A DNA stretch of 43,025 nucleotides, from IMG/VR virus record IMGVR_UViG_3300020185_000097, positions 1 to 43,025 of that record, one strand, 5' to 3'. This document shows, piece by piece, positions 328 to 43,025 of this stretch. The position numbers and the translations under genes were made by a program. The notes under the pieces are model-generated. The model was not told where the DNA came from. It was given only the letters and a program-made list of their open reading frames with translations, and did no database searches. Source of the DNA: a virus. Every line of letters begins with the position of its first letter. Within the stretch, counting starts at the first letter, position 1.

Positions 328-333
328 TTAATT

Positions 334-1539: not shown

Positions 1540-1545
1540 CTCTTA

Positions 1546-2643: not shown

Positions 2644-2665
2644 AGTTTTTTTATTATTTATAGAA

Positions 2666-2692
2666 GCTAGGCCAGGATAAACCTGACCTAAC
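2666..2692 (-). other. hairpin in the gap between two structural genes
   Basis: The minus strand can form an imperfect stem of about 11 bp (arms 2666-2676 and 2682-2692, with G-U pairs) and a 5-nt loop. No U tract follows, so it is a poor intrinsic terminator. It may be a processing or mRNA-stabilising hairpin between the 286-aa and 365-aa genes. Confidence 0.35.
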
Positions 2693-2713
2693 CCTATAAT
2701 ATATATTACGTTG

Positions 2714-3574: not shown

Positions 3575-3596
3575 GATATAATATAATTAAATAATT

Positions 3597-3639
3597 AAAA
3601 AAAATAAAACTTGGGGCCACATAATATGACCCCAAGTTT
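3597..3639 (-). terminator. intrinsic terminator after the crAss-like capsid gene
   Basis: On the minus strand a perfect 10-bp stem (3630-3639 with 3607-3616, AAACTTGGGG/CCCCAAGTTT) and a 13-nt loop are followed by a U-rich tract (about 3597-3606). It starts 14 nt after the capsid stop codon. It would attenuate transcription into the downstream ring-protein genes, giving more capsid than tail message. Confidence 0.85.
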
Positions 3640-3652
3640 ATAAGATTAATGC

Positions 3653-5182: not shown

Positions 5183-5187
5183 AATTT

Positions 5188-6342
5188 TTAATTTTTAGGT
5201 TTTTTATTAATTTTCAGTCTTGAAGTATCAACACCATTGACAGCCTTGACTTTCAAACCATTAATGAACAGGCTATCGTTAGATGTTTGTCTAGGGGCAT
5301 CATTAGTAATGTTTTTAGAATTACTAACCACCTCCTTAACAGCATCAGCTTTACCCTGATCATAAAAGTGAGAGACAATTTTGTCAACATTCTGGGCTGC
5401 ATACATCGCCTTGTGATACTCACTAAAGTTTTTAATATTGCCTTTTTCATCGAGAAACTTTCCCAATATATTGTCAATATTAGATTGAGTATCAGCGATA
5501 GAGTCAGTGTTATTTAATGCGTACCTAAACTTCTTTTCTCCAAGGTTGAAATCAAAACCTTTGAAATCGCTTTGGAAAAACTTTTTTGTTTCGGACTTAA
5601 ACAACTTACTGGACTCATCAGCCGCCTGTTGATTCTTCTTATATCGATTAAAAAAGTCCACTGCTTTCCTTTGCTCGTTGGATACCGTGGGCCTCGACTT
5701 GATTTCCTCGTAATATTTATCCTTTAAGTTATCAAGAAAGGAGCGTGCTTTTACAATCTCTTCTTTTTTAGCGAGTTTTTTTATTTTGATGTCTCGCTCG
5801 TCATCAAGGTCTTCATCGTAATGAAAGTTTTCTTCCATTACAAAATCTATTTCTTCTTGGTCTAAATGTGATTTTGTCTTGTTATAGTATTCCCGTAACA
5901 GCGTATCTTCATCCACATTAGAGTAGTCGGCATTCAATCGAACATAATCTTCTACCGTGCCTCCAGTATCATTTATAAACTGAACCAATTTATCAACGCC
6001 CTCTGGTAACCGTGCTGTGTCTTGCACATCCTCTTGTACATTTTCTTGTATAGGCTCCTCAGTAATTTCTTCAATTACTACCGCTTCTTCTCCGCTACCC
6101 CCATCATCTCCACTGGAGACTTCTTTGGTAGCTTCGACAGGTGTTGGTTCGGATGCTCGTTCCTCCACTTCTTGTACATTTGTGGCTTGTTTATCTTCAT
6201 CCACATTGCTTGGCTCTGGCTCTTGAATGGCATTCTCTTCTGTTTTTACTTCTTCTTTTTTCTTCGATAGGTCCAACTTGGTTACCGTATCTTTACCCTT
6301 CTTGGGCTTTACATTAGATAGATCTAATTTGGTTTCTGACAT
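5188..6342 (-). CDS. scaffold-like acidic protein between portal and capsid
   Basis: A 384-residue, highly charged protein. Residues 1-110 are repetitive and acidic (Glu/Val/Thr rich) with a duplicated TKLDLSK/KLDLSNVK lead. Residues 115-250 are predicted helical with many Glu/Lys pairs. The C terminus holds a conserved GLKVKAVNGVDTSRLKI tail. It lies 6 nt before the capsid start and 32 nt after the portal stop, where crAss-like and many other phages encode a head scaffold or assembly protein. The scaffold role is inferred from charge, coiled-coil character and position. Confidence 0.55.
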   Translation of the reverse strand: MSETKLDLSNVKPKKGKDTVTKLDLSKKKEEVKTEENAIQEPEPSNVDEDKQATNVQEVEERASEPTPVEATKEVSSGDDGGSGEEAVVIEEITEEPIQENVQEDVQDTARLPEGVDKLVQFINDTGGTVEDYVRLNADYSNVDEDTLLREYYNKTKSHLDQEEIDFVMEENFHYDEDLDDERDIKIKKLAKKEEIVKARSFLDNLKDKYYEEIKSRPTVSNEQRKAVDFFNRYKKNQQAADESSKLFKSETKKFFQSDFKGFDFNLGEKKFRYALNNTDSIADTQSNIDNILGKFLDEKGNIKNFSEYHKAMYAAQNVDKIVSHFYDQGKADAVKEVVSNSKNITNDAPRQTSNDSLFINGLKVKAVNGVDTSRLKINKKPKN

Positions 6343-6361
6343 AATAATATAAAATATAATT

Positions 6362-6369
6362 GTTTAAAC
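6362..6369. promoter_or_regulatory. GTTTAAAC palindrome before the scaffold-like gene
   Basis: Second copy of the palindrome, placed 20 nt before the start codon at 6342 and followed on the minus strand by ATATTTTATATT-type sequence. See the copy at 12300-12307. Confidence 0.28.
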
Positions 6370-6373
6370 ATGA

Positions 6374-8776
6374 TTATCGTGGCTCAAACTGTTCTAGTCC
6401 AATACCACCTAAAACATCATTCCCAGATGACTCAAAGTCTTTTGGGAGTAGATTATTTTTTCTTTGGTTAATCAGCTCACTTTGCTGAGTACCCTGCATT
6501 TTTATGCGTTTATCTTTTCTATCCTCAATCTCCATCTCTTTCTGAGAACCTGCATTAGCCTGTATTTGAGCTAATTGCATATTGAAATCAAACTCTAACT
6601 GCATAAGACCTCTCTTAATCTGAGCCTCCATTTCAAGTCTTTGAATCTCGAACTGAGATTTAGCTTGTTCAATACTAATCTTCTCTTGTGTTAACACCTG
6701 CTGCTTTTGAGTTTCAGCTAACGCAGCTTGTTCTGCTGCTTGTGCGTTTGATTGAGCCTGTACCTGATACATCTGCTGCTGACGTTGCTGCTCCATTTCA
6801 ACCTTCTTAGCTCTTTTCTGCTTTAGGATTTCATTAGCCAGCTTAATGTTGTTTATTTGACGTATGTCAATAGCGTCTTCAATGTCGATGCCACCAGTTT
6901 TAAGTGAAACCTGAATGTTCTGCTCTAATTGAGCCTTCTCCTCATCCTCTGGCTCTAACTCTAAGTAGATACCAAAATCATGCAGAGGTAAATTCATAAT
7001 CTCTTCTAGTGTACCCACGTTAAACGCACTAATAGAGTTTTGTAGTGAATTTTTAGTTAAAGCAAACTCAATAGAGTCAGAAATCCTCAGAGAGACGTTT
7101 TCACAGGCTCTAGCGATGAGATATAGGCTAGACTGTAGGATATGCCTAGTTGCTACATTCGATGCGTTAGCGGCAAGCTTTTGAAGTCCTACAAGTGAGT
7201 CCTCCATTGGTAAGCTACCATCCCTAGCCTCATTTAGACCCGTTACATCACGAATCATTTGTAGGTAGTACTGGTATGTATTAATTAACGCACCGAGCTT
7301 TGCTTGCCCATTAGATGAGTTTAGTTCTTGTATTGGAACCTTTCCCCTATTCATATCACCCTCCTGAGTCAAAGACCTGCCAAGTATACTACCAGTCTGG
7401 AAGTACATGTTTAGTGCTTCTTGTGGGTTGTAGTTAGTTCCGTTACCCAAGTCAACCTCCGCTAGTCCATCTATATCTAAGTATACACCGTCTGGAACAA
7501 GCTTAGATATAACCTGCTGCATCTTTAGGTTTGTGATATTAATCATGTCAGCAAAACCAGTGATCTTACTAACAACAGACTCAATCCTACCCTTATACAT
7601 TCTTGGGGCAGTAATAGCATAATTCATTACAATCCTAGTGGTATCTGACTTTGGTCGGGTCATATTCTCACACAACTTCCATTCTAGCATTTCATCATAC
7701 CCAAGAATCTTAGCTCCCTGAAATAACACCTCTATTGATCTAGATACTTTATCGAATGAATCTGACGGTGGTGGGTTAAATAAATCTGTTTTTTGAATAG
7801 CCTTCTCAAGGCCATTGCTTGTGCGTTTTAATTTAAACACTTGGTTCATATATGTCTTATACTCGAAGTATAAAACCTGAACCGTGTTCTCATCATAGTC
7901 ATTCCAACCAACTACATCACCCCTGTTACCACGCTTAGAAATTCTATCAAGCTCTTGATCAGAGATGTGTGGATACTGCTTCTTTAGCTCAGGGATGGTG
8001 ATTGACTTTACCTCACCAACATAATAAACATCCTCAAAGTTTGGGTCCTCTGTGTATGACCAAACCATTTTAGCTGGGTCGCAGTAATCTATAACTACCC
8101 CATTAGCCTTGTTCCAGCTAGTTTTTAAAGCACCAATACCAAGAACAGTTAAGTCATAATTAACTCTACGTCTTGTTAATTCAAATTTATTTTTAGCTAA
8201 AGTGTTGTTAATTGCCTCTTCCTCAGCTATTTCTATAGATGGCTTGTACTTAAGCTGCATGTATATAGAAACCTCGTCTGGAGTTTCAGGTAAGTCAGTT
8301 TTACCAGGGAAGTTAGATACATCAATTCCAATGTCTTGCTTTAGTTTTGCAATCTGATCCTTAGCTATAATCTCTCTTAATAGATTACTAGCATAATTAG
8401 TTCTTTCTTTTAGTGAGTCTGGATCTTGTGCGTATGCATTGATATTATACTTTTTCTCAGACATACCGTTGACCGTGATGTCGACAAACTTAGATATAAC
8501 TGGAACTGGTTTCCAATCTAGGTTTAAATAAGACAGATCACCATTGATGGAAATCTCGTCTTTATACTTCTGTACGGGTTGCTCTCCTCTTGCATAAAGT
8601 CTAAGGCTGTGGTATTTGTTCCAGTTTGTGGTAAATCTATTACCAGTCCTGCCACCATAGAACCACTCACCCTCTATAGCTCTACCAACCTGCTTACCAT
8701 AGTCGTAACTCTGTTTTTCCTCGTCACTAACGACCTGGCTCGGAAAAGAACTATTTGGATTTGTGCTTATATTCAT
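6374..8776 (-). CDS. portal protein, crAss-like
   Basis: An 800-residue protein encoded directly after terminase (ATGA overlap, 8773-8776) and before the scaffold-like and capsid genes. The N-terminal 600 residues have portal-like organisation, with a beta/helical wing, YDLTVLGIGALKTSWNKANG and a later INITNLKMQQVISKLVPDG helical segment. Residues about 640-760 form a long Gln-rich coiled coil (QQRQQQMYQVQAQ and related heptads), a feature of crAss-like portals whose C-terminal barrel extends into the capsid. The length is typical of that family and larger than the 590-residue portal of the second phage at 37660-39432. Confidence 0.85.
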   Translation of the reverse strand: MNISTNPNSSFPSQVVSDEEKQSYDYGKQVGRAIEGEWFYGGRTGNRFTTNWNKYHSLRLYARGEQPVQKYKDEISINGDLSYLNLDWKPVPVISKFVDITVNGMSEKKYNINAYAQDPDSLKERTNYASNLLREIIAKDQIAKLKQDIGIDVSNFPGKTDLPETPDEVSIYMQLKYKPSIEIAEEEAINNTLAKNKFELTRRRVNYDLTVLGIGALKTSWNKANGVVIDYCDPAKMVWSYTEDPNFEDVYYVGEVKSITIPELKKQYPHISDQELDRISKRGNRGDVVGWNDYDENTVQVLYFEYKTYMNQVFKLKRTSNGLEKAIQKTDLFNPPPSDSFDKVSRSIEVLFQGAKILGYDEMLEWKLCENMTRPKSDTTRIVMNYAITAPRMYKGRIESVVSKITGFADMINITNLKMQQVISKLVPDGVYLDIDGLAEVDLGNGTNYNPQEALNMYFQTGSILGRSLTQEGDMNRGKVPIQELNSSNGQAKLGALINTYQYYLQMIRDVTGLNEARDGSLPMEDSLVGLQKLAANASNVATRHILQSSLYLIARACENVSLRISDSIEFALTKNSLQNSISAFNVGTLEEIMNLPLHDFGIYLELEPEDEEKAQLEQNIQVSLKTGGIDIEDAIDIRQINNIKLANEILKQKRAKKVEMEQQRQQQMYQVQAQSNAQAAEQAALAETQKQQVLTQEKISIEQAKSQFEIQRLEMEAQIKRGLMQLEFDFNMQLAQIQANAGSQKEMEIEDRKDKRIKMQGTQQSELINQRKNNLLPKDFESSGNDVLGGIGLEQFEPR

Positions 8777-10989
8777 TTATCTATCAATTTAGAAACACTA
8801 CCAGTGTTATCATATTTTTTAAATGCAAGGGCTATATTATTTCTGACAACTTTATTTATAGGTGCGTATCTGTTTTTATTACACGCCATTATTGCCAATC
8901 CTGAACTTATAGACGCATCAAATTTTGTTCTGTTGTTTATATCAAACCTTGCCCAGTCATTTAATGTTCTGTCGAAATACATATCCCCGTAATGGTCATC
9001 ACCTATGACACCAACACACTCGTCTATGTAAGTTTCTATTGCGGCTGCATGAGCCTGCTTAATGTCCTCGCTTGAGTTGGGTATACCACCTATCTCCTTT
9101 TCTGTCAGTGATAGATTATTCCAGACTCTATCTGGTCGGTTCATTGAATAACCCCTATACCCCCTACGCTTTATGTGATACAACAATCTAGGCTTATTAT
9201 TCTCACAAAGAATTGGCATTCCGTAAAACACAATTGCCATTAAAATGTCTTCAAAGAATATCTCAGCAGTCTGTGGCCTAGATATATACTCTAAAAAGAA
9301 ATGATTCGCTGGAGCCTCCTCCATTGAAAACTTTGTTAATCCGTGTAGTGATCCATTTGATCCTGTGCCACTTACGGTTCCTGAGATATCGTAACTATCG
9401 CAGCCAAAGGCTCCTAAATGCTCATTACCAGGATACTTAATCCCATTCTTTAATATTACTCTATTTTGCAGATTTATAGGTGGAACCCAAGAAATTAAAA
9501 ATCTACCATTATTATTAGGCATGAATATTACTTTGCTGTCTTTAATTCCATGCTCCCATTGAAAACTACCTTTAGTTATAATATTGGTATTTCTTAGGTC
9601 CTGATTGTAATCTATCTGCTGATATATCTTAGTTAAATTAAACAGTGCATTCTTTGCCTCATCCCTAAAAGCGTGTTCAACTGTCCTTGGGAATTGACGA
9701 TAAAATTCATTCAACCCCTCTTGGTCATTTTTTAGACCATCAACTTCGTTTTGCCAGTAGTCTACAACACCAATCCTTATTTGATTACCATATGGATCAT
9801 AAACCTTATCTTTTGGTGTTTCAAAAACTGGCGATCCATATTCATCAATATACCCCTCGTAGTTCCATTCCATTGGGATAAATAAAGAATACAAACCAGA
9901 TGCTGTTTGTCCGTTGGCATTTCTTTTAGTTACATCAGAGTTCTCATAAAGCTTTTTAAAGCTCTCTCCTCCCTTATCTAATGAGTTGGAGGTGCTACCC
10001 ATCATACACTTACCGATAATGCGGCTACCAAGCCTTAAACAGGTCTTAGTGACCCTCCAATTGTTTAGGATGTTATTTGGCCTCTCCCACTTACCAGATT
10101 CATCGTGAATTAATAGCGATAGCTTTTCACCATCGTAAGAGTTGTCCCCAGTATTTTTCCAGTCAATTGTTGTGTCGAGACCAGTGATCTCTTCAACTGT
10201 AGATTTTGCGTCCAACTTCTTCCTTGTAAACTTAGAGGCTGGGACTCGATACGCTAGTTCTGTCTTTGGTCTATCCATACCATCCTGTATCGGCTTAAAG
10301 AAGAACGGATAGTTTACTGAAATAGGTACTACTTTATCCGTGAACATCTTCTTAGCATCTGGACCAGTCTTAGATAGGATACCAAACCTAGAGTCACTAG
10401 ATAGGGTAGCCATGTTTACTGTCTCAGCGGATGACATAAATGAAAAACCAGATCGTCTGTTTTTTAAATAGCACATCCCGTAACTCCTATAGTCTGCCTT
10501 ACACGCCTCCCAGAATATAAAGAACAATCTATTAGATTCTCTAAAATTTGGCTTACCGACATCAATCTTTGACCACTGTAGGTATGTGTAGTGTGAGCCA
10601 GTTATGTACGTTGGTTTCTTATTATTTACAAACCAAAAACCATCCTCTCTTCTTGTAAACTCAGTGTCGATGTAATCAAACCACCTGTTCTTGAACTCCT
10701 CTGGGGCATCGTTCCACTCAAATACATTCTTAAACCTTGACAGCTCTTTGGGGTATTGTGTATACTCCCACTTGTTGCCATTAAACTTGACCACATCACT
10801 TTCCAGTGGTAGGGCTATTTTTAGGTTTTGTATTTCGTAAATCTCACCTATCTGTCCAGTACGACTAATAACCACAATGTCGTGGTCTTCATTGTAACCA
10901 TACTTCCACTTCTTAGCCTTGTTCATTCTTTTCAGAACGTGCGGCTTTATGTGGCCGTCTAATATTTTTAATAATGTCTGGTCGTACAT
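8773..10989 (-). CDS. terL: terminase large subunit, crAss-like
   Basis: A 738-residue packaging ATPase/nuclease. A modified P-loop lies near residue 178 in YLKNRRSGFSFMSSAETVN, and the Walker B-like segment is LSLLIHDESGKW (acidic DE pair), followed by the ATPase coupling region GKCMMGSTSNSLDKGGESF. The C-terminal half contains GAFGCDSYD and GDDHYGDMYFDR acidic patches expected of the RNase H-like nuclease. The P-loop lacks the usual GK(T/S), reading RRSGFS instead, a divergent form consistent with large crAss-like terminases. It overlaps the portal start by 4 nt and abuts the small upstream gene. Length and order fit the family well. Confidence 0.87.
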   Translation of the reverse strand: MYDQTLLKILDGHIKPHVLKRMNKAKKWKYGYNEDHDIVVISRTGQIGEIYEIQNLKIALPLESDVVKFNGNKWEYTQYPKELSRFKNVFEWNDAPEEFKNRWFDYIDTEFTRREDGFWFVNNKKPTYITGSHYTYLQWSKIDVGKPNFRESNRLFFIFWEACKADYRSYGMCYLKNRRSGFSFMSSAETVNMATLSSDSRFGILSKTGPDAKKMFTDKVVPISVNYPFFFKPIQDGMDRPKTELAYRVPASKFTRKKLDAKSTVEEITGLDTTIDWKNTGDNSYDGEKLSLLIHDESGKWERPNNILNNWRVTKTCLRLGSRIIGKCMMGSTSNSLDKGGESFKKLYENSDVTKRNANGQTASGLYSLFIPMEWNYEGYIDEYGSPVFETPKDKVYDPYGNQIRIGVVDYWQNEVDGLKNDQEGLNEFYRQFPRTVEHAFRDEAKNALFNLTKIYQQIDYNQDLRNTNIITKGSFQWEHGIKDSKVIFMPNNNGRFLISWVPPINLQNRVILKNGIKYPGNEHLGAFGCDSYDISGTVSGTGSNGSLHGLTKFSMEEAPANHFFLEYISRPQTAEIFFEDILMAIVFYGMPILCENNKPRLLYHIKRRGYRGYSMNRPDRVWNNLSLTEKEIGGIPNSSEDIKQAHAAAIETYIDECVGVIGDDHYGDMYFDRTLNDWARFDINNRTKFDASISSGLAIMACNKNRYAPINKVVRNNIALAFKKYDNTGSVSKLIDK

Positions 10990-11270
10990 TATTTTTTAGA
11001 TCTATTTTCTGCAAATCCACTAAAGGACTTTTTTGGTTCCTCTTTCTCTGTTTTACCATCTAGCATATTCTGCTCCTCATTTATTCTATTTAGAATCTCA
11101 AAGGCATCGAATATCGCAAGCTTTTTAGTGGCCGCTGCGTTCTTTAATCTATCCGCTGAAACATCATCCTCACCCCCAGTTACAATTGGCTCTCTAGCCA
11201 CCTTAATTAACTCCTCAACGGCTGATTGTCCAGCTTGGATTATACTCAGTTTGGTTTCCTTGGTTGTCAT
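10989..11270 (-). CDS. small conserved protein before terminase (possible small terminase subunit)
   Basis: The ATG at 11270 gives a 93-residue protein starting MTTKETKLS. An upstream GTG at 11291 is open but deepens the overlap with the preceding gene, so I prefer the ATG. The sequence is helical (AGQSAVEELIKVAREP, then SADRLKNAAATKKLAIFDAF) with a charged tail. The stop codon overlaps the terminase start by one base. A small helical protein immediately before terL suggests a small terminase subunit, but no helix-turn-helix is obvious, so this is positional inference. Confidence 0.5.
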   Translation of the reverse strand: MTTKETKLSIIQAGQSAVEELIKVAREPIVTGGEDDVSADRLKNAAATKKLAIFDAFEILNRINEEQNMLDGKTEKEEPKKSFSGFAENRSKK

Positions 11271-11811
11271 AAGCCAAAACAATATTTTCACATTTCATAC
11301 AATATAATAATTCACTATCTACCACAAACTCAAACTCTGACTCTGGTGTAAACCCCACTACCATTCCAGGTATTACGTTTTCTTTTTCCAGTAACTCATT
11401 ACCGTACTTAAGTATACCAGTCAATGGCCTATCTTTTTGAGTTGACCACTGGTCATCGTTAGTGACTGGCTGCACAAAGCAGTAATCTAAATGCGATACG
11501 TTGTCACCGTAAAGATATATCTGTTCTGGTGAGCAGGCATACATGTCATCCTGTATGTGACTCCTACTATTTTTTTCATTACCCCGTATATCATAAAATC
11601 TTCTGAATACGTTGTGATGAACCTTAACTATATCACCCTCCTTAATCTTTGTATCAAAAGCTAATGGAGTAGCAACAACCACCCCATTTTTACTTACACT
11701 TTTGTAGTCTTCTATTTTAGTATTGGTAATGAATGTTACATCACCAATTTTCTTCTTGTTATTGTACCTACCATCAAGTGGCTTTACAATAAAGTCATAA
11801 ATGCTGTTCAT
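11215..11811 (-). CDS. possible phage co-chaperonin (GroES-like), crAss-like arm
   Basis: A 198-residue protein. Residues 8-70 follow the GroES layout: a KPLDGR start, a variable stretch where the mobile loop would be, SKNGVVVATPL, then IKEGDIVKVHHNVFRR, matching the 'G-x-V-V-A ... V-K-x-G-D-x-V' pattern. The remaining residues extend well beyond a normal 95-residue GroES and contain CSPEQIYLY and FVQPV segments. Phage GroES analogues such as T4 gp31 help fold capsid protein, which would suit its place next to head genes. The match is to a general pattern by eye, so confidence is modest. It overlaps the next gene by 56 nt. Confidence 0.42.
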   Translation of the reverse strand: MNSIYDFIVKPLDGRYNNKKKIGDVTFITNTKIEDYKSVSKNGVVVATPLAFDTKIKEGDIVKVHHNVFRRFYDIRGNEKNSRSHIQDDMYACSPEQIYLYGDNVSHLDYCFVQPVTNDDQWSTQKDRPLTGILKYGNELLEKENVIPGMVVGFTPESEFEFVVDSELLYCMKCENIVLAYDNQGNQTEYNPSWTISR

Positions 11812-11817
11812 AAACCA

Positions 11818-12042
11818 TTAGTAAGACAGATCATACTCAACAGAGATGGCCATGTTTTTATTGAACTTCTTCCACGGCAAAACTTCATCGTCTTTTGTTA
11901 TGTATATGTTGTATGAGCTTTCTTCTTCATTAAAAAGAATGTCACATATATCATGACCACCGTAGACTAACTGACCAACTGAATAATGCATAGCGTCATT
12001 CTTGTAATCCGAACCTATACTTATTTTTCTAATTATAGGCAT
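11818..12042 (-). CDS. conserved small phage protein, unknown function
   Basis: A 74-residue protein with SIGSDYKNDAMHYSVGQLV and a C-terminal WKKFNKNMAISVEYDL motif. I recognise this layout from small conserved proteins of crAss-like and other Bacteroidetes phages, but no function is known to me. It is probably beta-rich, with no membrane segment. It is separated from neighbours by 2 and 6 nt, so it is in the same operon as the terminase. Confidence 0.6.
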   Translation of the reverse strand: MPIIRKISIGSDYKNDAMHYSVGQLVYGGHDICDILFNEEESSYNIYITKDDEVLPWKKFNKNMAISVEYDLSY

Positions 12043-12044
12043 CG

Positions 12045-12275
12045 TTAATCTTTTTTCTCGATGGGCTTATAGGAACCATCTGATAAATCAATATTTACTG
12101 CCCCGTACTTCTCCTCAAGACCCTTCTTAGTCTTGTTAGAATCAGTTAATAGATTTGAATAAGACGTTAATACCTTACTCTTTTCACTTTCTAACAACCC
12201 AACTTGTTTTAGCATGTTGTTCATTTTCATCTGCTGATCCACAATAAGATCAAGCTCTTCTTTTTCTATTTTCAT
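12045..12275 (-). CDS. small coiled-coil phage protein
   Basis: A 76-residue, almost wholly helical protein with heptad-like spacing (MKMNNMLKQVGLLESEKSKV) and a conserved end, EEKYGAVNIDLSDGSYKPI. Proteins of this pattern are common near structural genes of Bacteroidetes phages; the function is not known to me. It is preceded by a 51-nt AT-rich gap with a GTTTAAAC palindrome at 12300-12307. Confidence 0.58.
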   Translation of the reverse strand: MKIEKEELDLIVDQQMKMNNMLKQVGLLESEKSKVLTSYSNLLTDSNKTKKGLEEKYGAVNIDLSDGSYKPIEKKD

Positions 12276-12299
12276 TTAATTAAATTTAATTATATATAT

Positions 12300-12307
12300 G
12301 TTTAAAC
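12300..12307. promoter_or_regulatory. GTTTAAAC palindrome in AT-rich leader
   Basis: A GTTTAAAC palindrome followed on the minus strand by a long AT stretch up to the start codon at 12275. The same palindrome and AT-rich leader precede the scaffold-like gene (6362-6369). It may mark a promoter or operator of the crAss-like phage. Two copies alone are weak evidence. Confidence 0.28.
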
Positions 12308-12553: not shown

Positions 12554-14230
12554 TTATGGATTGTAAAGTGAATCTAATATTGTTTCAATACCAACTCTGT
12601 TTGCGCTCTGGTCTGATGTGTAAGCTACAAGAGCTGACAATTTGCCACCAAAGTTTAAAATTCCTGCTGACCAAAATCCAAATCTATACTCTGCCCAAAT
12701 AGATGTGACTGCATCAATATGTGAAATCACCTTGCGTCCATTCGTGTCAGTGTACACAGTACCTCTGTTTGTCACATTAATAGGTACACCATTTTGATAT
12801 AAACTAGGAGAACCATAAGAAGGAGACGTTGTGACTGTGCTTGTATTACCACTATATGCAATCATCCCATAATAAGAAGTGATATTGCTGTTTGGGAATA
12901 TGTAGGCAGTGTCTCCATCCGTATCTGTTAAAAAGAATTGGTCTAGTCTAGCCTCACCAAATAAATCAACAGTATTACTTAAATACTCGTTAATACCGTC
13001 AAATTTAACAGCAGGAACGCCTCCGCTAGTAACTACCACACCAGCGTTCACTATCATAGGTTGATTAGCCGCACTTGCTTGAATAAAGTTTGATGAGTTA
13101 CCACTTTGGTCGTAGTAAGTAGTTACAAAAGCATCATAGTTACCGCCTGGATGGCTAACCCACATACCACTAGCTGGGAAATTATTTAATGTTCCGTTAT
13201 TGCTATTTCCACTAGCATCAACAGCGGTAGTGTCTGTACCCGACTCATTAAATTTATAATATACATTTGGAGACGCTATTACACTTGTTGCAGTTGCGCC
13301 TAGTCCACCGTTATATAAGTCATCAACATTTTGTTGAGTTAATGAAGATTCTGTCTTAACAAATAGCTCATCAAGAATAAATTGCCCATAAGCACCACTA
13401 CCTTCACCTATTCGATCAAAACTTATATTTTCGTTATCGTAGTTATCGGTATCACCTGTGTATTTTGTTCCATTAATCCACATTTCATTTACTCCTCCAT
13501 TTAACGAAACAGCAATGTAATACCAAGTACTTGTGGAAATGGCTGGAAATGAAAATGTAGTAGTTGCAGCACCAGCAGATCTACTTCTAAATGTAGCAGA
13601 GGTGCTATTGTTCCACCTAAACCATTGATTTCCATTAGTTGAATCGCCTAAAATATATTCAAAATTGGGCGTTGATGAAAAGTTTACCCAAAATCCAAAG
13701 CATAAACCATTTGAAGGTGGTTTGTTAATTGAGGTAAATGAAACATTGTCATTTACACCATCAAAACTAAGTGCATTGCCAAAAGAGAACACATCCGCTA
13801 TCTGCGCACTTGCTAAACTATTTGCTGAATCACTACCTGATGCGTTAGTTTCAGTTTGTACTGCTCTTATATAATTTGCATCATCCGCTGCTACCAATGT
13901 ATAAGTGATTGAATTAGCACCAATGATGTCCGCCCATCCTGTAGAACCATCAGCACTTCGTTGCCATGTCCATGAAGTTGTCGGTGTAGGATCACCTGTT
14001 GCACTTGCAGCCGTTGCCGTAATTGTTTCACCTACTTGACTCTCCGCGCTAATAGTTGGAACACCGCTAATGACTGGAATCGTTCCTCCTCCTGCACCTT
14101 CTAAAGCAGTTAATCCAGCTTCACTATCACCGTAAACTGAACCCCAGCCAATAGTATTGTTATCAGCTCCTTTACCCCAGCCTATATTGTTATTTAGGAC
14201 ACCATCTCCCCAGCCGTTATCGTTTGCCAT
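12554..14230 (-). CDS. LamG/concanavalin-like phage adhesin (possible assembly hybrid)
   Basis: A 558-residue surface protein. Residues 5-35 contain GWG-type repeats (NGWGDG, IGWGKG, IGWGSV). About 50-140 is an Ig-like domain (SWTWQRSADGSTGW ... YTLVAADDANYIRAVQ). About 150-330 is a LamG/concanavalin-like domain with SFDGVNDNVSF and MWINGTKYTGDTDNYD. About 365-558 is a second jelly-roll-like domain with FVTTYYDQSGN and KFDGINEYLS. Such proteins serve as receptor-binding fibres or spikes. The segment 13506-13632 is identical to the end of the window, so the 5' part may come from the siphovirus and the 3' part from the crAss-like phage. The whole ORF may therefore not exist in one genome. Confidence 0.7.
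   Translation of the reverse strand: MANDNGWGDGVLNNNIGWGKGADNNTIGWGSVYGDSEAGLTALEGAGGGTIPVISGVPTISAESQVGETITATAASATGDPTPTTSWTWQRSADGSTGWADIIGANSITYTLVAADDANYIRAVQTETNASGSDSANSLASAQIADVFSFGNALSFDGVNDNVSFTSINKPPSNGLCFGFWVNFSSTPNFEYILGDSTNGNQWFRWNNSTSATFRSRSAGAATTTFSFPAISTSTWYYIAVSLNGGVNEMWINGTKYTGDTDNYDNENISFDRIGEGSGAYGQFILDELFVKTESSLTQQNVDDLYNGGLGATATSVIASPNVYYKFNESGTDTTAVDASGNSNNGTLNNFPASGMWVSHPGGNYDAFVTTYYDQSGNSSNFIQASAANQPMIVNAGVVVTSGGVPAVKFDGINEYLSNTVDLFGEARLDQFFLTDTDGDTAYIFPNSNITSYYGMIAYSGNTSTVTTSPSYGSPSLYQNGVPINVTNRGTVYTDTNGRKVISHIDAVTSIWAEYRFGFWSAGILNFGGKLSALVAYTSDQSANRVGIETILDSLYNP
13506..13632 (-). repeat. 127-bp exact direct repeat, internal copy
   Basis: Identical over 127 bases to 42899-43025 (offset 29,393). 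The base before it differs (C at 13505, T at 42898). On that side the two copies remain similar but diverged for several hundred bases. The other copy is cut exactly at the window end. It lies within the LamG domain coding sequence. Confidence 0.95.
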
Positions 14231-22936: not shown

Positions 22937-24100
22937 TTAACGAATAGCGTAAACTCCGTAGTTTGGTTTACTTAACTTATTCCATACAGCGTATCTGGTC
23001 GCGTCAATAGCATGGTTAAAATTGTCTATTGGCTTGTTCAGTAGATTGCCGTTTTTATCTTCTTGCCATTTATAGTTTTGAAGTTCCTTGATGATGTTGA
23101 GGCTTGACTTAGTTACATGAATCTTGTATCGCTTGAGCATATCAATGCCAGCCATAACACTATCCGCACCTTTAGCCGTTGGCTTTACATTCCACCTCAT
23201 ACGATATAGTTCTTCGATTGATTTAGGCTCTGCGCTGTCTGCAAATATTTCGTCTTGTCTAGTTAGCTGAAGCTCCGCAAACTTATCTGATATGTCAGGG
23301 TTGGTTAAATTGGTGTGATAAAGTAACTCATCTAAATAAAGGTTTTCTCCATCTTTATAAACGGCAACCATAGAAGTAGGATCGTTGGTAAATCCAAAGT
23401 CTAAACCATACGATAGTATCTTAACATCAGCAGGTACTTCATCAACTACTGAGAATTGAAATATAGTGGCTCTTGATGAACCACGCTCACCAAGTCCATA
23501 TATACGCCAGTAATCATTATCAGTAAATTGAAGTCGCTCAATCTCCATCTTGATACTTTTATCAAGAAACTTATTATCCTTATAAGTGGTTTGTAAGAAG
23601 TCGCAATCATCTCTTGGCACTACTTTATCATAAATCCAATGAAAGCTATCAGAAGGATTGTAATCAAGTATTATACGGCCTGTGGTTCTGAATACAATTT
23701 GTTGCCAATCTTCCCAATAAAATTCATTGGCTTCGTTAAGAAATGCTAAATCTCTTTTTCGGCCTCTGACTTTTTGCGGTTGATCTAAGCTAATAAACTC
23801 AATTAGGTTGCCGTTAAGAATATATTCGCTATTGCTTTTGTTGTGGTAGTCTTCGTTGTATATTTCGTGCTTCCTCAGTATGTCAAAGAAGTCACGCATT
23901 ACAGATGAACGCAATGCAGGAAAAGTCTTTCTAGCAATTGTAACTGTTTTACCTGTGTTTTTGTTGCAATAGTAAAAGATAATCCAAAGCAGAATGTTGT
24001 ATGTTTTACCAGACCTTGTACCGCCTTGCTCAACAATTATCTTCTTCTCTGAATACTTGAGATGATGGTAGACTCTATTCGTTTCTATCTTTCCCGTCAT
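22937..24100 (-). CDS. terL: terminase large subunit, siphovirus
   Basis: A 387-residue packaging motor. Walker A is GGTRSGKT at residues 26-33. Walker B with the catalytic Glu is LAFLNEAN (118-125). The coupling/nuclease domain has Asp residues in GLDFGF (D234), IFADSAEP (D288) and NHAIDATRYA (D366), the RNase H-like catalytic set. Length and layout match PBSX/Terminase_3-type enzymes. It overlaps the small terminase by 26 nt. It is unrelated to the 738-residue terminase at 8773-10989, so the window has two packaging systems. Confidence 0.93.
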   Translation of the reverse strand: MTGKIETNRVYHHLKYSEKKIIVEQGGTRSGKTYNILLWIIFYYCNKNTGKTVTIARKTFPALRSSVMRDFFDILRKHEIYNEDYHNKSNSEYILNGNLIEFISLDQPQKVRGRKRDLAFLNEANEFYWEDWQQIVFRTTGRIILDYNPSDSFHWIYDKVVPRDDCDFLQTTYKDNKFLDKSIKMEIERLQFTDNDYWRIYGLGERGSSRATIFQFSVVDEVPADVKILSYGLDFGFTNDPTSMVAVYKDGENLYLDELLYHTNLTNPDISDKFAELQLTRQDEIFADSAEPKSIEELYRMRWNVKPTAKGADSVMAGIDMLKRYKIHVTKSSLNIIKELQNYKWQEDKNGNLLNKPIDNFNHAIDATRYAVWNKLSKPNYGVYAIR

Positions 24101-24428
24101 CTTCTATAATCTCAAAGGTTTTAATTCCTTCGTGTGCTATTTCTTGACGTTCAATGTAACCTCTTCTCTTTCCTTTGGTCTTTAAATAAAAAATAGTTGA
24201 CGTTGGATTACCGTCTTGAATTTGTTTGTGCAAACTACTTTCGGCAAAGTCAATAGCAAGGTCTGCAATACTTTCAACTGAGGCGCGATATTCTTCATCC
24301 TCCTTCATCCAATTGTAATGTGAACCCCTATCTATACCAACCGTCTTGCAAGCCGTTGTAACGATGCCTAATGATTTTTCAAGCGCAACTATCATCGCCT
24401 TTTTTAGTGTTGAATTTTGTTTGTTCAT
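24075..24428 (-). CDS. terS: terminase small subunit
   Basis: A 117-residue protein. Residues about 8-45 form a helix-turn-helix (ALEKSLGIVTTACKTVGIDR then HYNWMKEDEEYR), followed by a helical oligomerisation region and a segment TIFYLKTKGKRRGY typical of phage small terminases (and of phBC6A51-like HTH proteins). The acidic C terminus overlaps the large subunit gene by 26 nt. It recognises the packaging site and recruits the motor. Confidence 0.85.
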   Translation of the reverse strand: MNKQNSTLKKAMIVALEKSLGIVTTACKTVGIDRGSHYNWMKEDEEYRASVESIADLAIDFAESSLHKQIQDGNPTSTIFYLKTKGKRRGYIERQEIAHEGIKTFEIIEDDGKDRNE

Positions 24429-24429
24429 A

Positions 24430-25239
24430 TTAAATTCCTTTGAATGCTTTTAATGGATAAAATATTAGACTATTTCTATAACCTCCTTCGTGAGTTGGTA
24501 TTATTGGCGTTACTCCGTGAACGTTTCTCCAAGCTGGGTAAACTAATATAGAGTTATCCTTTTGTCCTATCGTGGCATCATAGTCTGGTATGTGCAAATC
24601 TCCGCCTTTAGAATTATGTTTCTTGCAAATGATTACGTTTACTGCTCCCACTATATTGCCACTATCTCTGTGAAATGGAGCTGAAATATTAAAATTTGAA
24701 ATTGAACCTGTAAACAAATTAGAAAATTTCCATTTGTCGTTTATTTCCGTAAACAATTCTGTTTGAAGTTTGTGTTGTTCTGGCAATATTTGTCTAATAA
24801 GTTCTTCGCTCTCTTTAGCTAACAGCAACATTGCTTTAACAAAAATCTCAGCTGATTTTACAGAATGAACGCTTGACCTTGAGGCGTAAGGTCTTCTTAC
24901 CATAGGCTTTGGAGGTATAGATCCAAGTATAACCGACATCTGAGATACTTCACCGCCTTTTTTGTTTTTATATTTTTCAATTATATCTGGTCTTGCAGAT
25001 TGTTGATTAATAGCAGACGCCCTGTTCATTATTGATTTCGGCACTCTTTTTGAATTAAATTCTGCGTCTGCTAAGTCTGCTAACTTGCACATCTTTTCAG
25101 GCATTTTAGTAAGGTAAAACCCTATTGCCTCTCTATCTGCATAAAATATACAGTCTTCAGTTACATTAGGTTCTATATATTCGCAAGCCTCTCCTATCTT
25201 TCTGCTATGCTCTACTTTTATTAAATCAACTCTTTTCAT
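24430..25239 (-). CDS. TET/JBP-family DNA base dioxygenase
   Basis: A 269-residue protein whose C-terminal half carries the full Fe(II)/2-oxoglutarate dioxygenase set: H190-x-D192 in APFHRDSGN, H241 in WRNVHGVTP, and R255 in GGYRNSLIFY. The surrounding pattern (a strand leading to H-x-D-x-G-N, then VGAVNVIICKK and GGDLHIPDYD) is that of the TET/JBP family, which hydroxylates methyl groups of 5-methylcytosine or thymine in DNA. The ATGA overlap with the glycosyltransferase upstream indicates joint action. The small terminase starts 2 nt downstream. Family confidence is high. The substrate (5mC or T) is not determined by the sequence. Confidence 0.8.
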   Translation of the reverse strand: MKRVDLIKVEHSRKIGEACEYIEPNVTEDCIFYADREAIGFYLTKMPEKMCKLADLADAEFNSKRVPKSIMNRASAINQQSARPDIIEKYKNKKGGEVSQMSVILGSIPPKPMVRRPYASRSSVHSVKSAEIFVKAMLLLAKESEELIRQILPEQHKLQTELFTEINDKWKFSNLFTGSISNFNISAPFHRDSGNIVGAVNVIICKKHNSKGGDLHIPDYDATIGQKDNSILVYPAWRNVHGVTPIIPTHEGGYRNSLIFYPLKAFKGI

Positions 25240-25967
25240 TTTACTGTTTTGTTATAATGCATAGCTAGTTCTTTTATCTTTGTTTTCATGTCAACTCTAT
25301 CTCCTTTGTTTTTTAAGGTTACAAATGGATGCCACTCATAGCACATTTTTTTAGCAGTTTCCTCATCCTTTTTTGCTTTGTACTCAGACTGAAGACCTCC
25401 AGCGTTTGAACCAACATCAGGGCAAGCAAACCAAAAGTGATTAAACCTTAAAACTCCATTACCTTTTTTTATAGTTTGCAATGCAAAATCTCTATCCTCT
25501 TTTAAATTAAACTCTGGTCGGTAATCCCATTTTATTTTACTTACGTTCATTAAGACGCAGACTTCCGCAAACTTTCTATTTATAGAGTAACTTGTTTTCT
25601 CGTGCCAAGCGTGTTGAGTATAATTTATACCAACCAGTTCAAAAGGTAATTTTTTTGCTTTTTCTAATATATTAAACCATATAGATGCGTCTTTTTTTAC
25701 CGTTTTACCATTGTAAATACCAAAAGAAGTTACATCATCATCGCATATTATAACCCATTCAAAACTATTCTGCCTAGCATAGTTTAACATAAAATTACGA
25801 ACGTATCCAATGCCTTTGTCATTATCTAATATAGAAACTTTATTAGGCACATTGTAATCATCAAACTCTTGAGGCTCAATAAAATGAAAAACTTTTATAC
25901 CAACGTCTTGAAAAAGTTTGTACGTTTTTGTGTTTAACCTTCCTTTTGTGGGTATAAAGCAAATCAT
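25236..25967 (-). CDS. TET-associated DNA glycosyltransferase
   Basis: A 243-residue GT-A fold enzyme. PTKGR at residues 6-10 begins the nucleotide-sugar site. IICDDDVTSFG (D76-D78) is the metal-binding DxD. NLKEDRDFAL (E157-D160) supplies the catalytic acid region, followed by FNHFWF. This combination (P-[ST]-x-G-R, DDD, ED-x-DF) matches the glycosyltransferases found beside TET/JBP dioxygenases in phages, related to the base J glucosyltransferase. It would attach a sugar to hydroxymethyl bases. It overlaps the dioxygenase and ParB-like genes by 4 nt each. The sugar is unknown. Confidence 0.78.
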   Translation of the reverse strand: MICFIPTKGRLNTKTYKLFQDVGIKVFHFIEPQEFDDYNVPNKVSILDNDKGIGYVRNFMLNYARQNSFEWVIICDDDVTSFGIYNGKTVKKDASIWFNILEKAKKLPFELVGINYTQHAWHEKTSYSINRKFAEVCVLMNVSKIKWDYRPEFNLKEDRDFALQTIKKGNGVLRFNHFWFACPDVGSNAGGLQSEYKAKKDEETAKKMCYEWHPFVTLKNKGDRVDMKTKIKELAMHYNKTVK

Positions 25968-26533
25968 AACTTATTTTTTTGATCCTTTAAATATTCCATT
26001 ATCATACCTCCAACATACGCTTCACGTTCGCGCCAAAACTTGACCAGCTCATACGCTTCCTCATAGTGCTCTGCTTCAAATTCTATTTGAATGGCTTTCT
26101 TAACCCCATTGGTCATATCGGAAAGCTGCTCAGAAACGTCATCCTCGTCAAGAATTGAATAGTCTACGTCTGCTGGCTGTTGCCAAACATCCAATCCCCA
26201 CTCCTCAAGCTGAAAAGAATCCCACTCGTTTGCTAAAATATCCCAATCCCATTCTCCAAAGCCTACATTGTCTTTTACTATAAACTCCTTCTGTTGCTCT
26301 TTCGTTAATTGTTCAGCAATTATAATAGGAACTTCTTTTAATCCAGCTTCTTTGCAAGCCTTTAAACGCATATTACCACCAAGAACTACCATATCATTAT
26401 TGACAACAATAGGTCGCAATTCCAGCATCTGAGGAAATTCATTTATTGATTTGACCAGCTTCTTAAACTTGTCATCCTTTATAATTCTAGGATTTTTAGG
26501 ATTTGCCTTTAAAGTGTTAATCTTAACTTTCAT
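25964..26533 (-). CDS. ParB-like nuclease/partition-domain protein
   Basis: A 189-residue protein. Residues 1-95 are a ParB/sulfiredoxin-type domain: LKANPKNPR, RPIVVNNDMVVLGGNMRLKA and VPIIIAEQLTKEQQKEF. The remainder is an acidic linker (VDYSILDEDDVSEQL) and a conserved VKKAIQIEFEAEHYEEAYEL end. In phages such domains often precede or are fused to DNA methyltransferases; here no methyltransferase follows and a glycosyltransferase does instead. It may target the modification enzymes to DNA or act as a CTP-dependent DNA binder. Confidence 0.72.
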   Translation of the reverse strand: MKVKINTLKANPKNPRIIKDDKFKKLVKSINEFPQMLELRPIVVNNDMVVLGGNMRLKACKEAGLKEVPIIIAEQLTKEQQKEFIVKDNVGFGEWDWDILANEWDSFQLEEWGLDVWQQPADVDYSILDEDDVSEQLSDMTNGVKKAIQIEFEAEHYEEAYELVKFWREREAYVGGMIMEYLKDQKNKL

Positions 26534-26534
26534 A

Positions 26535-26999
26535 TTATATTTTTTTAAGTTCTAAATGCTTTATATCTGAATATCTTACTTTAGTTATTAAATCCTTTTT
26601 ACCCCACTTTTCTCTTGTGTAGAATTTTAAATACTCTTTCTTATCTGTTGTTTTTTCTTTAACGTTTGATTCTACAAATTTCAATAAATCTGCTCTATCA
26701 TAAATAGAGAAAGAATCAAGTTCAGATATGTGCATAGCAATGTACTTTGCATCTCCTCTTAACCAACCCTTATTTCCGTTCACGTTAGAATATTCCAGCC
26801 ATATAGTTTCTAAATGACGGTTTCCTTTTACGTCAACACCAAAACCATTAACGTAACAATCAATATGTTTATACCAATCATCTTCATTTGTTCCATCTCT
26901 AAATTTCAGACCTCTTGCAATAACCTTTTTCATAAATAGCGACTCAAACTTATCCCCATATACGGAACATCTATTTAGTCTACTTTTAGAAACCTCCAT
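26535..26999 (-). CDS. putative PD-(D/E)xK-fold nuclease
   Basis: A 154-residue protein. E19 (GDKFESLF), D47 (KHIDCYV) and D56-x-K58 (GVDVKGNR) are spaced as in the PD-(D/E)xK nuclease core, and WLEYSNVNGNKGWLRG provides the following strand, as in phage nucleases that act on virion or host DNA. It lies at the head of the modification block, so a nuclease that distinguishes modified phage DNA from unmodified host DNA is an attractive idea. The fold assignment is by motif only. Confidence 0.5.
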   Translation of the reverse strand: MEVSKSRLNRCSVYGDKFESLFMKKVIARGLKFRDGTNEDDWYKHIDCYVNGFGVDVKGNRHLETIWLEYSNVNGNKGWLRGDAKYIAMHISELDSFSIYDRADLLKFVESNVKEKTTDKKEYLKFYTREKWGKKDLITKVRYSDIKHLELKKI

Positions 27000-27016
27000 T
27001 TTTTAATCGTTATAAA
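26998..27016. repeat. 19-bp direct repeat, copy 1
   Basis: Identical to 27188-27206. On the minus strand it covers the end of a vestigial peptide (MVVIVFYND) that mirrors the real C terminus DIVLVVYND encoded at copy 2. The two copies flank the 48-residue ORF. Confidence 0.85.
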
Positions 27017-27034
27017 ATACTATAACTACCATTT

Positions 27035-27187: not shown

Positions 27188-27206
27188 ATTTTTTAATCGT
27201 TATAAA
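27188..27206. repeat. 19-bp direct repeat, copy 2
   Basis: Second copy of the repeat at 26998-27016. It contains the last codons and stop of the 44-residue ORF on the minus strand. Confidence 0.85.
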
Positions 27207-27327
27207 CTACCAGCACTATATCAAAAACACCAATATATAAAACGTGTTCAGTAAATTCTTCTTGATGATAGCTTCTATATCCAAACAGAAAGCCATTTAT
27301 TATTCCTACTAATAGTTCCCAATTCAT
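27193..27327 (-). CDS. tiny conserved phage protein
   Basis: A 44-residue ORF reading MNWELLVGIINGFLFGYRSY at the start and YIGVFDIVLVVYND at the end. I recall very similar tiny proteins (WELLxGIINGFLFGYR) in many Bacteroidetes phages; their function is unknown to me. The Gly/Phe/Leu/Ile content suggests membrane association. It overlaps the upstream gene by 4 nt (ATGA), which supports translation. Confidence 0.62.
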   Translation of the reverse strand: MNWELLVGIINGFLFGYRSYHQEEFTEHVLYIGVFDIVLVVYND

Positions 27328-41436: not shown

Positions 41437-42129
41437 TTAAGAAATATTTATATTGGAAAACTTCGCCATCATTTTGTCGCGTAGTGTGTCCTTTTTGTTA
41501 TTTGAAAACTTGAAATTGTCAGCCTTTTTAGATTCCCTTTCAGGATTAGGCTTAATTGCTTTGGCTGCTGGCATCGCGGCCATTTGGCTTTTCTTAACTC
41601 TGTTTTTCTTTTTTGAGTTAAGATTTGCTTTTAATTGCGCCATCATTGCTGTTGGCACGTTTGCCTCAACCACCGAAATAATTTCAGCAATCACATCCTC
41701 TGCGATTGTTGCTGAATCTTCCGTTGTTACTTCCGTTGGTGTAGCTTCGTTGATAATATCTGCAACTTGGCTCACTACTTGAGTTTGAACCTCTTCAATT
41801 GCAACAACAACTTCTTCAGCAATTACCTCTGGGGCAATTTCTTCAGCAGCTTCGACTTCAACTTCCGCTTCAGCAGCAGGAGCTTCAGCATCTTTCATTT
41901 CTGAAATAACACCTTCCTCCACAACTACAAGAACGCGACCATCTTCCAAAGTATAATCTCCAACAGGCAAAGGAACTTGACCGTCTTCGGTAACTATGAA
42001 AACTGGTGAACCAGCTTCGAAAGCATCTGCTTCGATAACTGTACCATTATCAAGCGGCATCTGCTCAAGGTTAACTTCTTGACCTAGCAGTCGCTTGACT
42101 CCATTTAAAATTAATTTGTAATCTTTCAT
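41437..42129 (-). CDS. scaffolding protein, siphovirus
   Basis: A 230-residue protein. The first 80 residues are beta-rich (VKRLLGQEVNLEQMPLDNGT, PVFIVTEDGQVPLPVGDYTL). The middle (about 80-170) is a long Ala/Glu/Val-rich acidic helix. The C terminus is Lys/Asn-rich and probably binds the capsid shell. It lies 2 nt before the capsid gene, the standard scaffold position. It is preceded by a late promoter-like element. Confidence 0.7.
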   Translation of the reverse strand: MKDYKLILNGVKRLLGQEVNLEQMPLDNGTVIEADAFEAGSPVFIVTEDGQVPLPVGDYTLEDGRVLVVVEEGVISEMKDAEAPAAEAEVEVEAAEEIAPEVIAEEVVVAIEEVQTQVVSQVADIINEATPTEVTTEDSATIAEDVIAEIISVVEANVPTAMMAQLKANLNSKKKNRVKKSQMAAMPAAKAIKPNPERESKKADNFKFSNNKKDTLRDKMMAKFSNINIS

Positions 42130-42130
42130 A

Positions 42131-42161
42131 CATATATAACTAATGCATGATTAATCTGTCA
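42131..42161 (-). promoter_or_regulatory. late promoter-like element, copy 4 (scaffold/capsid)
   Basis: Minus strand TGACA at 42161-42157, an 18-nt spacer, TATATATG at 42138-42131, one base before the ATG at 42129. It is the most divergent of the four copies. Confidence 0.6.
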
Positions 42162-42180
42162 CATTTAAGCTAGTTTTTCA

Positions 42181-42315
42181 TTAGCTACCGCACGCCTCAC
42201 ATTCAGCGTCATCTATATCGCATACTTGTGGCTTGACAACCTTTGTCTTGTCCTGATTCTCAGCGGCTCGCATTAATGCCTCTAAGCCGTTTGCTTCTTC
42301 CGTAATGTTCGCCAT
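42181..42315 (-). CDS. small protein with Cys motif before the scaffold gene
   Basis: A 44-residue ORF (MANITEEANGLEALMRAAEN ... VCDIDDAECEACGS). The C-terminal CDIDDAECEACGS could bind a metal ion. It starts one nucleotide after the upstream stop, so it is likely translated. It resembles small acidic peptides adjacent to fibre genes. No family is recognised. Confidence 0.5.
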   Translation of the reverse strand: MANITEEANGLEALMRAAENQDKTKVVKPQVCDIDDAECEACGS

Positions 42316-42316
42316 T

Positions 42317-42544
42317 TTAATCTTCTGTTTCTATAGGGTTAAATTCATTCTTCCAATTAATGAATGTATTCGCATTACCAATAATTGTGACAGAGGTGTC
42401 TGTGCTTAGATCTCTAATGGTTTCAATACCATCATACGAAGTCACCGATCCATCTGCGTTTGTTTTAACAAAATCCCAAATTACATCACCATCTCCTTTA
42501 GTAAAGGATTCTTGGTTAATTATATATCCGTATTTATTTTCCAT
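42317..42544 (-). CDS. small protein downstream of the second adhesin
   Basis: The start is set at ATG 42544 (MENKYGYIINQ, 75 residues), which shares the TAATG with the adhesin stop; five further codons upstream are open but overlap the adhesin. It is beta-rich with KGDGDVIWDFVKTNADGSVT and FINWKNEFNP. It occupies the same place as the 74-residue gene after the other adhesin but is unrelated, so each adhesin carries its own partner. Confidence 0.55.
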   Translation of the reverse strand: MENKYGYIINQESFTKGDGDVIWDFVKTNADGSVTSYDGIETIRDLSTDTSVTIIGNANTFINWKNEFNPIETED

Positions 42545-43025
42545 TAGTGTGCTATCCAATAAGTTCCTGTAAAATTATTTAATGTTCCTGTGTTACTATT
42601 ACCGCTATCATCAATAGCTGTTATATCTGTTCCTGAGCCATTCAACCTATAATAAATATTTGGGTCTGTTACAACGTCAGTAGCAAATTGCCCCAGTCCA
42701 CCATTATATAAGTCATCAACATTTTGTTGAGTTAATGAGGACGCTACCTTAACAAATAGCTCATCAAGAATGAATTGCGCATAAGTACCAACACGTTCGC
42801 CTATTCGATCAAAACTTATAGTTTCGGGATCGTAATTATCGGTATCTCCTGTATATTTTGTCCCATTAATCCACATTTCATTTACTCCTCCATTTAATGA
42901 AACAGCAATGTAATACCAAGTACTTGTGGAAATGGCTGGAAATGAAAATGTAGTAGTTGCAGCACCAGCAGATCTACTTCTAAATGTAGCAGAGGTGCTA
43001 TTGTTCCACCTAAACCATTGATTTC
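42544..43025 (-). CDS. LamG adhesin, C-terminal part (cut by the window end)
   Basis: The frame is open to the window end at 43025. It encodes the LamG-domain segment MWINGTKYTGDTDNYDPETI and a short ending (YYRLNGSGTDITAIDDSGNS ... YWIAH) without the second jelly-roll of the paralogue at 12554-14230. Closing the 127-bp repeat joins it in frame to 13506-14230, giving 360 codons including stop. It is about 85-90% identical in DNA to the paralogue just beyond the exact repeat and lower further on. It is probably a receptor-binding fibre or spike of the siphovirus. Confidence 0.68.
   Translation of the reverse strand, partial: NQWFRWNNSTSATFRSRSAGAATTTFSFPAISTSTWYYIAVSLNGGVNEMWINGTKYTGDTDNYDPETISFDRIGERVGTYAQFILDELFVKVASSLTQQNVDDLYNGGLGQFATDVVTDPNIYYRLNGSGTDITAIDDSGNSNTGTLNNFTGTYWIAH
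42899..43025 (-). repeat. 127-bp exact direct repeat, terminal copy
   Basis: Identical to 13506-13632 and ending at the last base of the window. The repeat length equals a common assembler k-mer (127), which strongly suggests a branch point in a de Bruijn graph. Confidence 0.95.

Follow-up and report, generated by a model that had tools for sequence, protein, structure and literature searches.

A candidate DNA-hypermodification cassette of ParB, TAGT and TET with an exchangeable decorator slot in aquatic phages

In the window (the whole stretch that we analysed, the 43,025-bp IMG/VR record IMGVR_UViG_3300020185_000097), we identified three overlapping genes that probably form a DNA-hypermodification cassette. 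A TET/JBP-like dioxygenase would hydroxylate the phage DNA, a TET-associated glycosyltransferase (TAGT) would glycosylate it, and a ParB-domain protein would direct the modification. In related phages, ParB and TET are the constant frame of a slot in which recombination exchanges the decorating gene. Systems of TET and TAGT in phages, and their prediction, are already known, and annotators have proposed that distant mycobacteriophages hydroxylate thymine. Our additions are an aquatic clade that is mostly free of methyltransferases, the slot for exchangeable decorators, a recombination event caught in the act, and the correction of misleading annotations.

The cassette and its phage

The features that we discuss are:

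13179-42572: phage unit of ~29.4 kb that carries the cassette, supported by the independent contig G051
22937-24100, minus strand: terminase large subunit, TerL (Pfam PF04466 and PF17288)
24075-24428, minus strand: terminase small subunit, TerS (PHROGs), with a 1-nt gap to TET
24430-25239, minus strand: TET/JBP-like Fe(II)/2-oxoglutarate dioxygenase, 269 aa (ORF list, Pfam, residue conservation)
25236-25967, minus strand: TAGT (PF20691) with a GT-A fold, 243 aa (Pfam, PHROGs, fold model)
25964-26533, minus strand: ParB_N-domain protein, 189 aa (Pfam, PHROGs)
25178-26108: 931-nt block identical to contig L018, comprising the whole TAGT and reaching into ParB (3' end) and TET (5' end)

The ORF coordinates agree with the sequence-only reading that ParB, TAGT and TET lie on the minus strand directly upstream of the terminase genes, with 4-nt overlaps between TET and TAGT (25236-25239) and between TAGT and ParB (25964-25967).

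The record contains two large terminases and two portals. It is a chimeric contig, with the left ~12.3 kb from a different phage and a join near a LamG-like gene. The left part (1-12300) includes a large terminase (8773-10989), a portal (6374-8776), and structural genes of the other phage. We assigned the cassette to the ~29.4-kb phage because a contig from another sample independently matches that unit. This contig, G051 (30,190 bp; found by a portal search), is 99.7% identical to 13179-42329 and 100% identical to 42055-43025, and its TET is 100% identical to the window's. The unit had been described as a closed 29.4-kb genome. This description holds in essence, and G051 supports the size, but the evidence for closure within the window is inexact: the record is chimeric, and its end repeats (13179-13632 and 42572-43025, 454 bp) are only 87.6% identical. 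The ends of G051 also overlap each other imperfectly (93-94%). In our reading, the mismatching overlap lies within the LamG-like structural gene and is probably strain variation.

An HMM search had been proposed as a check on both enzymes. The TAGT matches PF20691 with 58.3 bits, above the cut-off of 27.5. The dioxygenase is a close miss: it matches Tet_JBP (PF12851) with 31.6 bits (E = 1.2e-7), under the curated cut-off of 34.9, so it is TET/JBP-like by profile and fold context and is not a formal member of the Pfam family. In PHROGs, it belongs to phrog_6059 (E = 1.2e-52). The dioxygenase residues picked out earlier (H190-x-D192, H241, and R255) are the iron ligands and the 2-oxoglutarate-binding arginine; they do not vary in any of the 130 relatives compared and are also found in distant phage TETs. 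The structural model of TET is weak (pLDDT 62, and under 50 in the active-site strands). Its best match in the PDB is CcTET, with NgTET1, TET2, and CMD1 further down, and searches of PDB sequences with TET gave weak matches to TET2 only.

The TAGT is a member of phrog_842, the T6-type glucosyltransferase family. The motifs PTKGR, DDD, and EDxDF are all present, as had been reported, and even TAGTs of only 22-28% identity keep D76-D78, D160, and F161 without change. The fold model has a pLDDT of 80 and its structure matches are GT-A enzymes, among them glycosyltransferases for polysaccharide, teichoic acid, and collagen.

ParB matches ParB_N (PF02195) with 36.1 bits, above the cut-off of 26.3. 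Its GxxR motif reads GNMR, and KDNVG replaces the ENxxR box. The subfamily is that of the ParB domains that are fused to phage DNA methyltransferases (phrog_498), which supports a role in DNA targeting. We propose that the stand-alone ParB is a DNA-binding or targeting partner.

Directly upstream of ParB is a gene for a 154-aa protein (26535-26999) that has no family match and no orthologue in any of 80 TET loci. A DVKG motif, read by eye, hints at a possible PD-(D/E)XK nuclease. Just upstream of this gene is a 31-nt direct repeat (26998-27028 and 27188-27218, 87%), which might be a regulatory or binding site. An element of ~41 nt, sigma-70-like when read on the minus strand, is found three times upstream of phage genes (14967-15007, 22897-22937, and 39769-39809); these are likely phage promoters.

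The slot between ParB and TET

We found 224 viral stretches that encode relatives of the TET, and the 80 that we kept were 70-81% identical. A second TET query gave at least 597 confirmed metagenomic stretches. A scan of genome contigs found no TET relatives in bacterial genomes or prophages. For the census of the slot, we used unique contigs that extend 1.8 kb or more upstream of TET (n = 88). ParB is upstream of TET in 87 of these 88 testable metagenomic loci. Terminase genes were identified downstream by BLAST in 55 of 84 loci, and the rest may be too diverged to score. The contents of the slot were:

FkbM methyltransferase (Pfam PF05050): 30 loci
TAGT: 23 loci
second TAGT clade: 11 loci
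other GT-A types: 9 loci
301-aa glycosyltransferase-like family: 6 loci
GATase-GNAT-ADDT-kinase: 4 loci
one GT-A type with a sulfotransferase: 1 locus
ADDT-like gene with a kinase: 1 locus
further multi-gene sets: 2

Hypermodification is supported by this list, because the slot holds known or plausible hydroxymethyl-decorating enzymes. The 301-aa family has no match in Pfam or PHROGs and is a probable glycosyltransferase. The slot of contig L024 (947-2247) encodes a TAGT-like enzyme and a sulfotransferase (PF03567), which suggests a sulfated sugar on phage DNA.

TET and ParB are ~70% identical between phages whose terminases are 24-71% identical. The 931-nt block that the window shares with L018 is also present, with one mismatch, in L025, which is from another sample. 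L018 and the window are 77.9% identical in the DNA of TET and 81.5% identical in the DNA of ParB. The identity of the TAGT block, against only ~80% in the genes on either side, shows a recent swap of the decorator. Another pair of contigs, L023 and L026, has TETs that are 91.7% identical and decorators that differ.

We also considered if conserved anchors at the end of ParB and the start of TET could be the cause of the exchange, and rejected this. Synonymous conservation is only mildly raised (0.63 in the last 9 codons of ParB versus a mean of 0.49; 0.59 in the first 10 codons of TET versus 0.53), 30-codon windows at these ends come 23rd among 160 and 83rd among 240, and we found no special nucleotide anchor.

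By exchanging the decorator, phages would be able to change how their DNA is chemically coated, as a defence against restriction nucleases and nucleases that depend on modification. Exchange of the slot fits with selection by host nucleases against any single decoration.

Related cassettes in cultured phages

The Prochlorococcus siphophages MED4-184, P-HS2, and MED4-117 share the order ParB–decorator–TET, possibly followed by a terminase small subunit, and then TerL. Their TET is 49% identical to the window's across its full length, but their decorator is a FkbM methyltransferase instead of a TAGT.

More distant cassettes lie at the left end of actinophage genomes, in the order ParB–TET–decorator(s)–terminase. 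These include the Mycobacterium phages Nigel, Zemanar, Prince, and Acadian, the Gordonia phage Wooper, the Rhodococcus phage Tonitrus, and the Microbacterium phage MementoMori. The TET is homologous to the window family (E = 6.4e-22 for the profile match with hhalign; ~28% identity), C5-methyltransferases are absent, and Acadian also has a TAGT. Unlike the window, the actinophages that we checked encode a P-loop kinase after TET (Ploopntkinase3, PF18751; E down to 1.3e-110), often with ADDT, TAGT, or PIG-L; two ParB-annotated proteins that we tested lack a Pfam match to ParB_N; and the hosts are Actinobacteria. In a profile comparison with hhalign, a kinase of the aquatic type matches the one from actinophages (E = 1.4e-12). 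A kinase and an amino-acid transferase form the known route from 5-hydroxymethyluracil (5hmU) to hypermodified thymidine, as reportedly described by Lee et al. in 2018 and in later work. Prince gp2 was named "thymidine hydroxylase" by its depositors, and Wooper gp4 was named "5-hmU DNA kinase".

The actinophage TETs are also under the Tet_JBP cut-off, and the depositors of Tonitrus and Wooper describe theirs as Tet-like. Phage TETs (phrog_6059; such as NC_042035 gp2, NC_011044 gp2, and NC_047987 gp2) are annotated in many RefSeq records as queuine tRNA-ribosyltransferase or as DpdA-like. These names look wrong: Pfam gives Tet_JBP alone in those that we tested. Similarly, the "terminase small subunit" genes beside TET in NC_011044 (gp3), NC_022061 (gp3), and NC_047987 (gp3), which belong to phrog_800, encode Ploopntkinase3 proteins (PF18751). 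These are probable DNA hydroxymethyl-pyrimidine kinases. Nigel, KayaCho, and MementoMori had seemed to have ParB, TET, and terminase without a decorator, but we rejected this arrangement because the annotated TerS is the Ploopntkinase3 protein.

The substrate of the TET

We propose that TET places a hydroxyl on the 5-methyl of a pyrimidine in replicated phage DNA, most likely converting thymine to 5hmU, and that TAGT adds a sugar to this hydroxyl, which would give a base-J-like product. ParB would bind DNA and direct or load the modifying enzymes. The cassette constantly adjoins the terminase, which suggests that the modification may occur before or during packaging.

The sequence-only reading had offered two substrates, thymine or 5-methylcytosine (5mC) made by the host. 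On the comparative data, we consider thymine the likelier of the two. In line with the earlier remark that no DNA methyltransferase is recognisable, the C5-methyltransferase domain (PF00145) is absent from the whole record and from the complete-looking contig G051. Of the IMG/VR records that carry TET and are 19 kb or longer, 22 of 25 lack PF00145. It is present in the other 3 of 25 and, for comparison, in 1 of 10 portal-related records in the same size range that lack TET, so in this small sample there is no enrichment with TET. The 16 cultured phages in which we examined a homologous TET, among them mycobacteriophages grown on M. smegmatis, all lack a C5-methyltransferase. Cytosine methylation in M. 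smegmatis is without confirmation (older papers did report 5mC). We favour thymine because of these absences, because 5mC in M. smegmatis is unconfirmed, and because the kinase and transferase partners are of the 5hmU type. Hydroxymethylation of nucleotides, as in T4 or SPO1, would involve a dCMP or dUMP hydroxymethylase from the thymidylate-synthase family (PF00303), and we found none in 20 records (G051 and 19 others).

An alignment to human TET2 pairs R255 with R1896, Y261 with Y1902, and L263 with H1904. H1904 and its equivalent in NgTET1 contact the cytosine. Position 263 is leucine in 129 of 130 relatives and in the actinophage TETs, except for one isoleucine. Leucine at this site fits a base other than 5mC; it is an indirect argument and does not prove thymine. 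A second clade of phage TETs (P12024L, HTVC112P, DLP_6, Cr30, and S-CBWM1) has arginine at this position. We considered this clade as a methyltransferase-linked calibrator, but it also lacks C5-methyltransferases.

The cytosine hypermodification that was reportedly described by Burke et al. in 2021, and that PMC12730594 summarises, relies on a phage TET and a C5-methyltransferase. The window is similar in combining TET with a glycosyltransferase that is predicted to act on DNA, but it and G051 lack the co-occurring C5-methyltransferase that defines that system. To our knowledge, the only biochemically studied phage TETs (Burke et al. 2021) act on 5mC, and we know of experiments on thymine hydroxylation in DNA for eukaryotic JBPs only. 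If the substrate is thymine, then the cassette would resemble the kinetoplastid base J pathway (JBP1/2 and a glucosyltransferase), with hydroxylation after replication, then glycosylation, and no methyltransferase. The differences are that base J is found in other organisms, that its glycosyltransferase may be of another family, and that the thymine step in the window is predicted. The T6-type TAGT (beta-glucosyl-HMC-alpha-glucosyltransferase) is from the same family (PF20691/phrog_842) and has the same GT-A fold. T6 differs in that it forms 5hmC at the nucleotide level. Also, the T6 TAGT adds the second sugar, on glucosylated 5hmC (PMC13216743; PMC13390438).

Some observations count against thymine. 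The best structural matches of the TET are 5mC oxidases, and the M. smegmatis phages, from a host with older reports of 5mC, are distant (~28% identity in TET). Besides the 3 of 25 long relatives, the shorter kinase-type contigs L006 and L055 encode genuine C5-methyltransferases, of two unrelated types. It is conceivable, if unlikely, that TET hydroxylates 5mC from host methyltransferases and that TAGT glucosylates 5hmC at sparse, host-defined sites. This would agree with the TETs that were characterised with solved DNA complexes, which act on 5mC and which the fold of the window TET matches, and with the use of glucosylated 5hmC by the T6 TAGT. C5-methyltransferases are encoded by some aquatic bacteria and by 2 of 6 Prochlorococcus genomes (MED4 is not among these six). 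But the modification would then hinge on the genotype of the host, over many unrelated hosts. Cytosine methylation is unconfirmed in M. smegmatis, yet ~55 Mycobacterium phage records, nearly all from phages grown on it, keep TET. The actinophage TETs are also coupled to kinase and ADDT enzymes, a type known from thymidine hypermodification. (Restriction-modification systems are missing from many Prochlorococcus [PMC8262939]; neither this nor the count of 2 of 6 serves as proof of the methylation state of MED4.)

It is still less probable that the phages encode an enzyme that forms 5mC and that we did not recognise it, whether a diverged methyltransferase or, in other members of the family, FkbM in that role. 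In favour of this, the C5-methyltransferases that some relatives encode are of several unrelated types, and a few ORFs in the window have no family match. Within the 29.4-kb unit, though, every methyltransferase match from Pfam or PHROGs is better explained by another phage role, and searches of G051 for PF00145 and PF00303 were empty. The slot in the window is occupied by a glycosyltransferase, not FkbM, and FkbM enzymes are O-methyltransferases, which fit better as decorators of a hydroxyl. We consider it very improbable that proteins or surface polymers are what the dioxygenase and the glycosyltransferase modify, as the broad GT-A fold matches might allow: the best sequence matches are to the Tet_JBP and TAGT families, the slot elsewhere holds amino acid:DNA transferases and kinases, and ParB is DNA-associated and is fused to DNA methyltransferases elsewhere. 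Family assignments, conservation, and gene context give good support to the original proposal of a module for hydroxylation and glycosylation of DNA bases.

More tentatively, the cassettes may belong to a large phage family in which a ParB-guided, thymine-specific TET forms 5hmU after replication, and in which decorators (sugar, methyl, amino-acid, or sulfated-sugar) are traded via the slot between ParB and TET, beside the packaging genes. This would be a modular prokaryotic counterpart of base J. If TET does act on thymine, then many phages would hydroxylate thymine in DNA (one query alone gave at least 597 metagenomic matches), the TETs could be useful to detect or make 5hmU, and a range of decorated thymines is predicted. 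As homologues are found in cultured mycobacteriophages that grow on a standard laboratory strain, the substrate of a phage TET is directly testable.

Another C5-methyltransferase-like family in aquatic phages consists of small proteins (215-230 aa) that carry PPC and ENV motifs (L086, L167, and matches in L016, L017, and L069). PF00145 matches these proteins only across its first ~90 positions.
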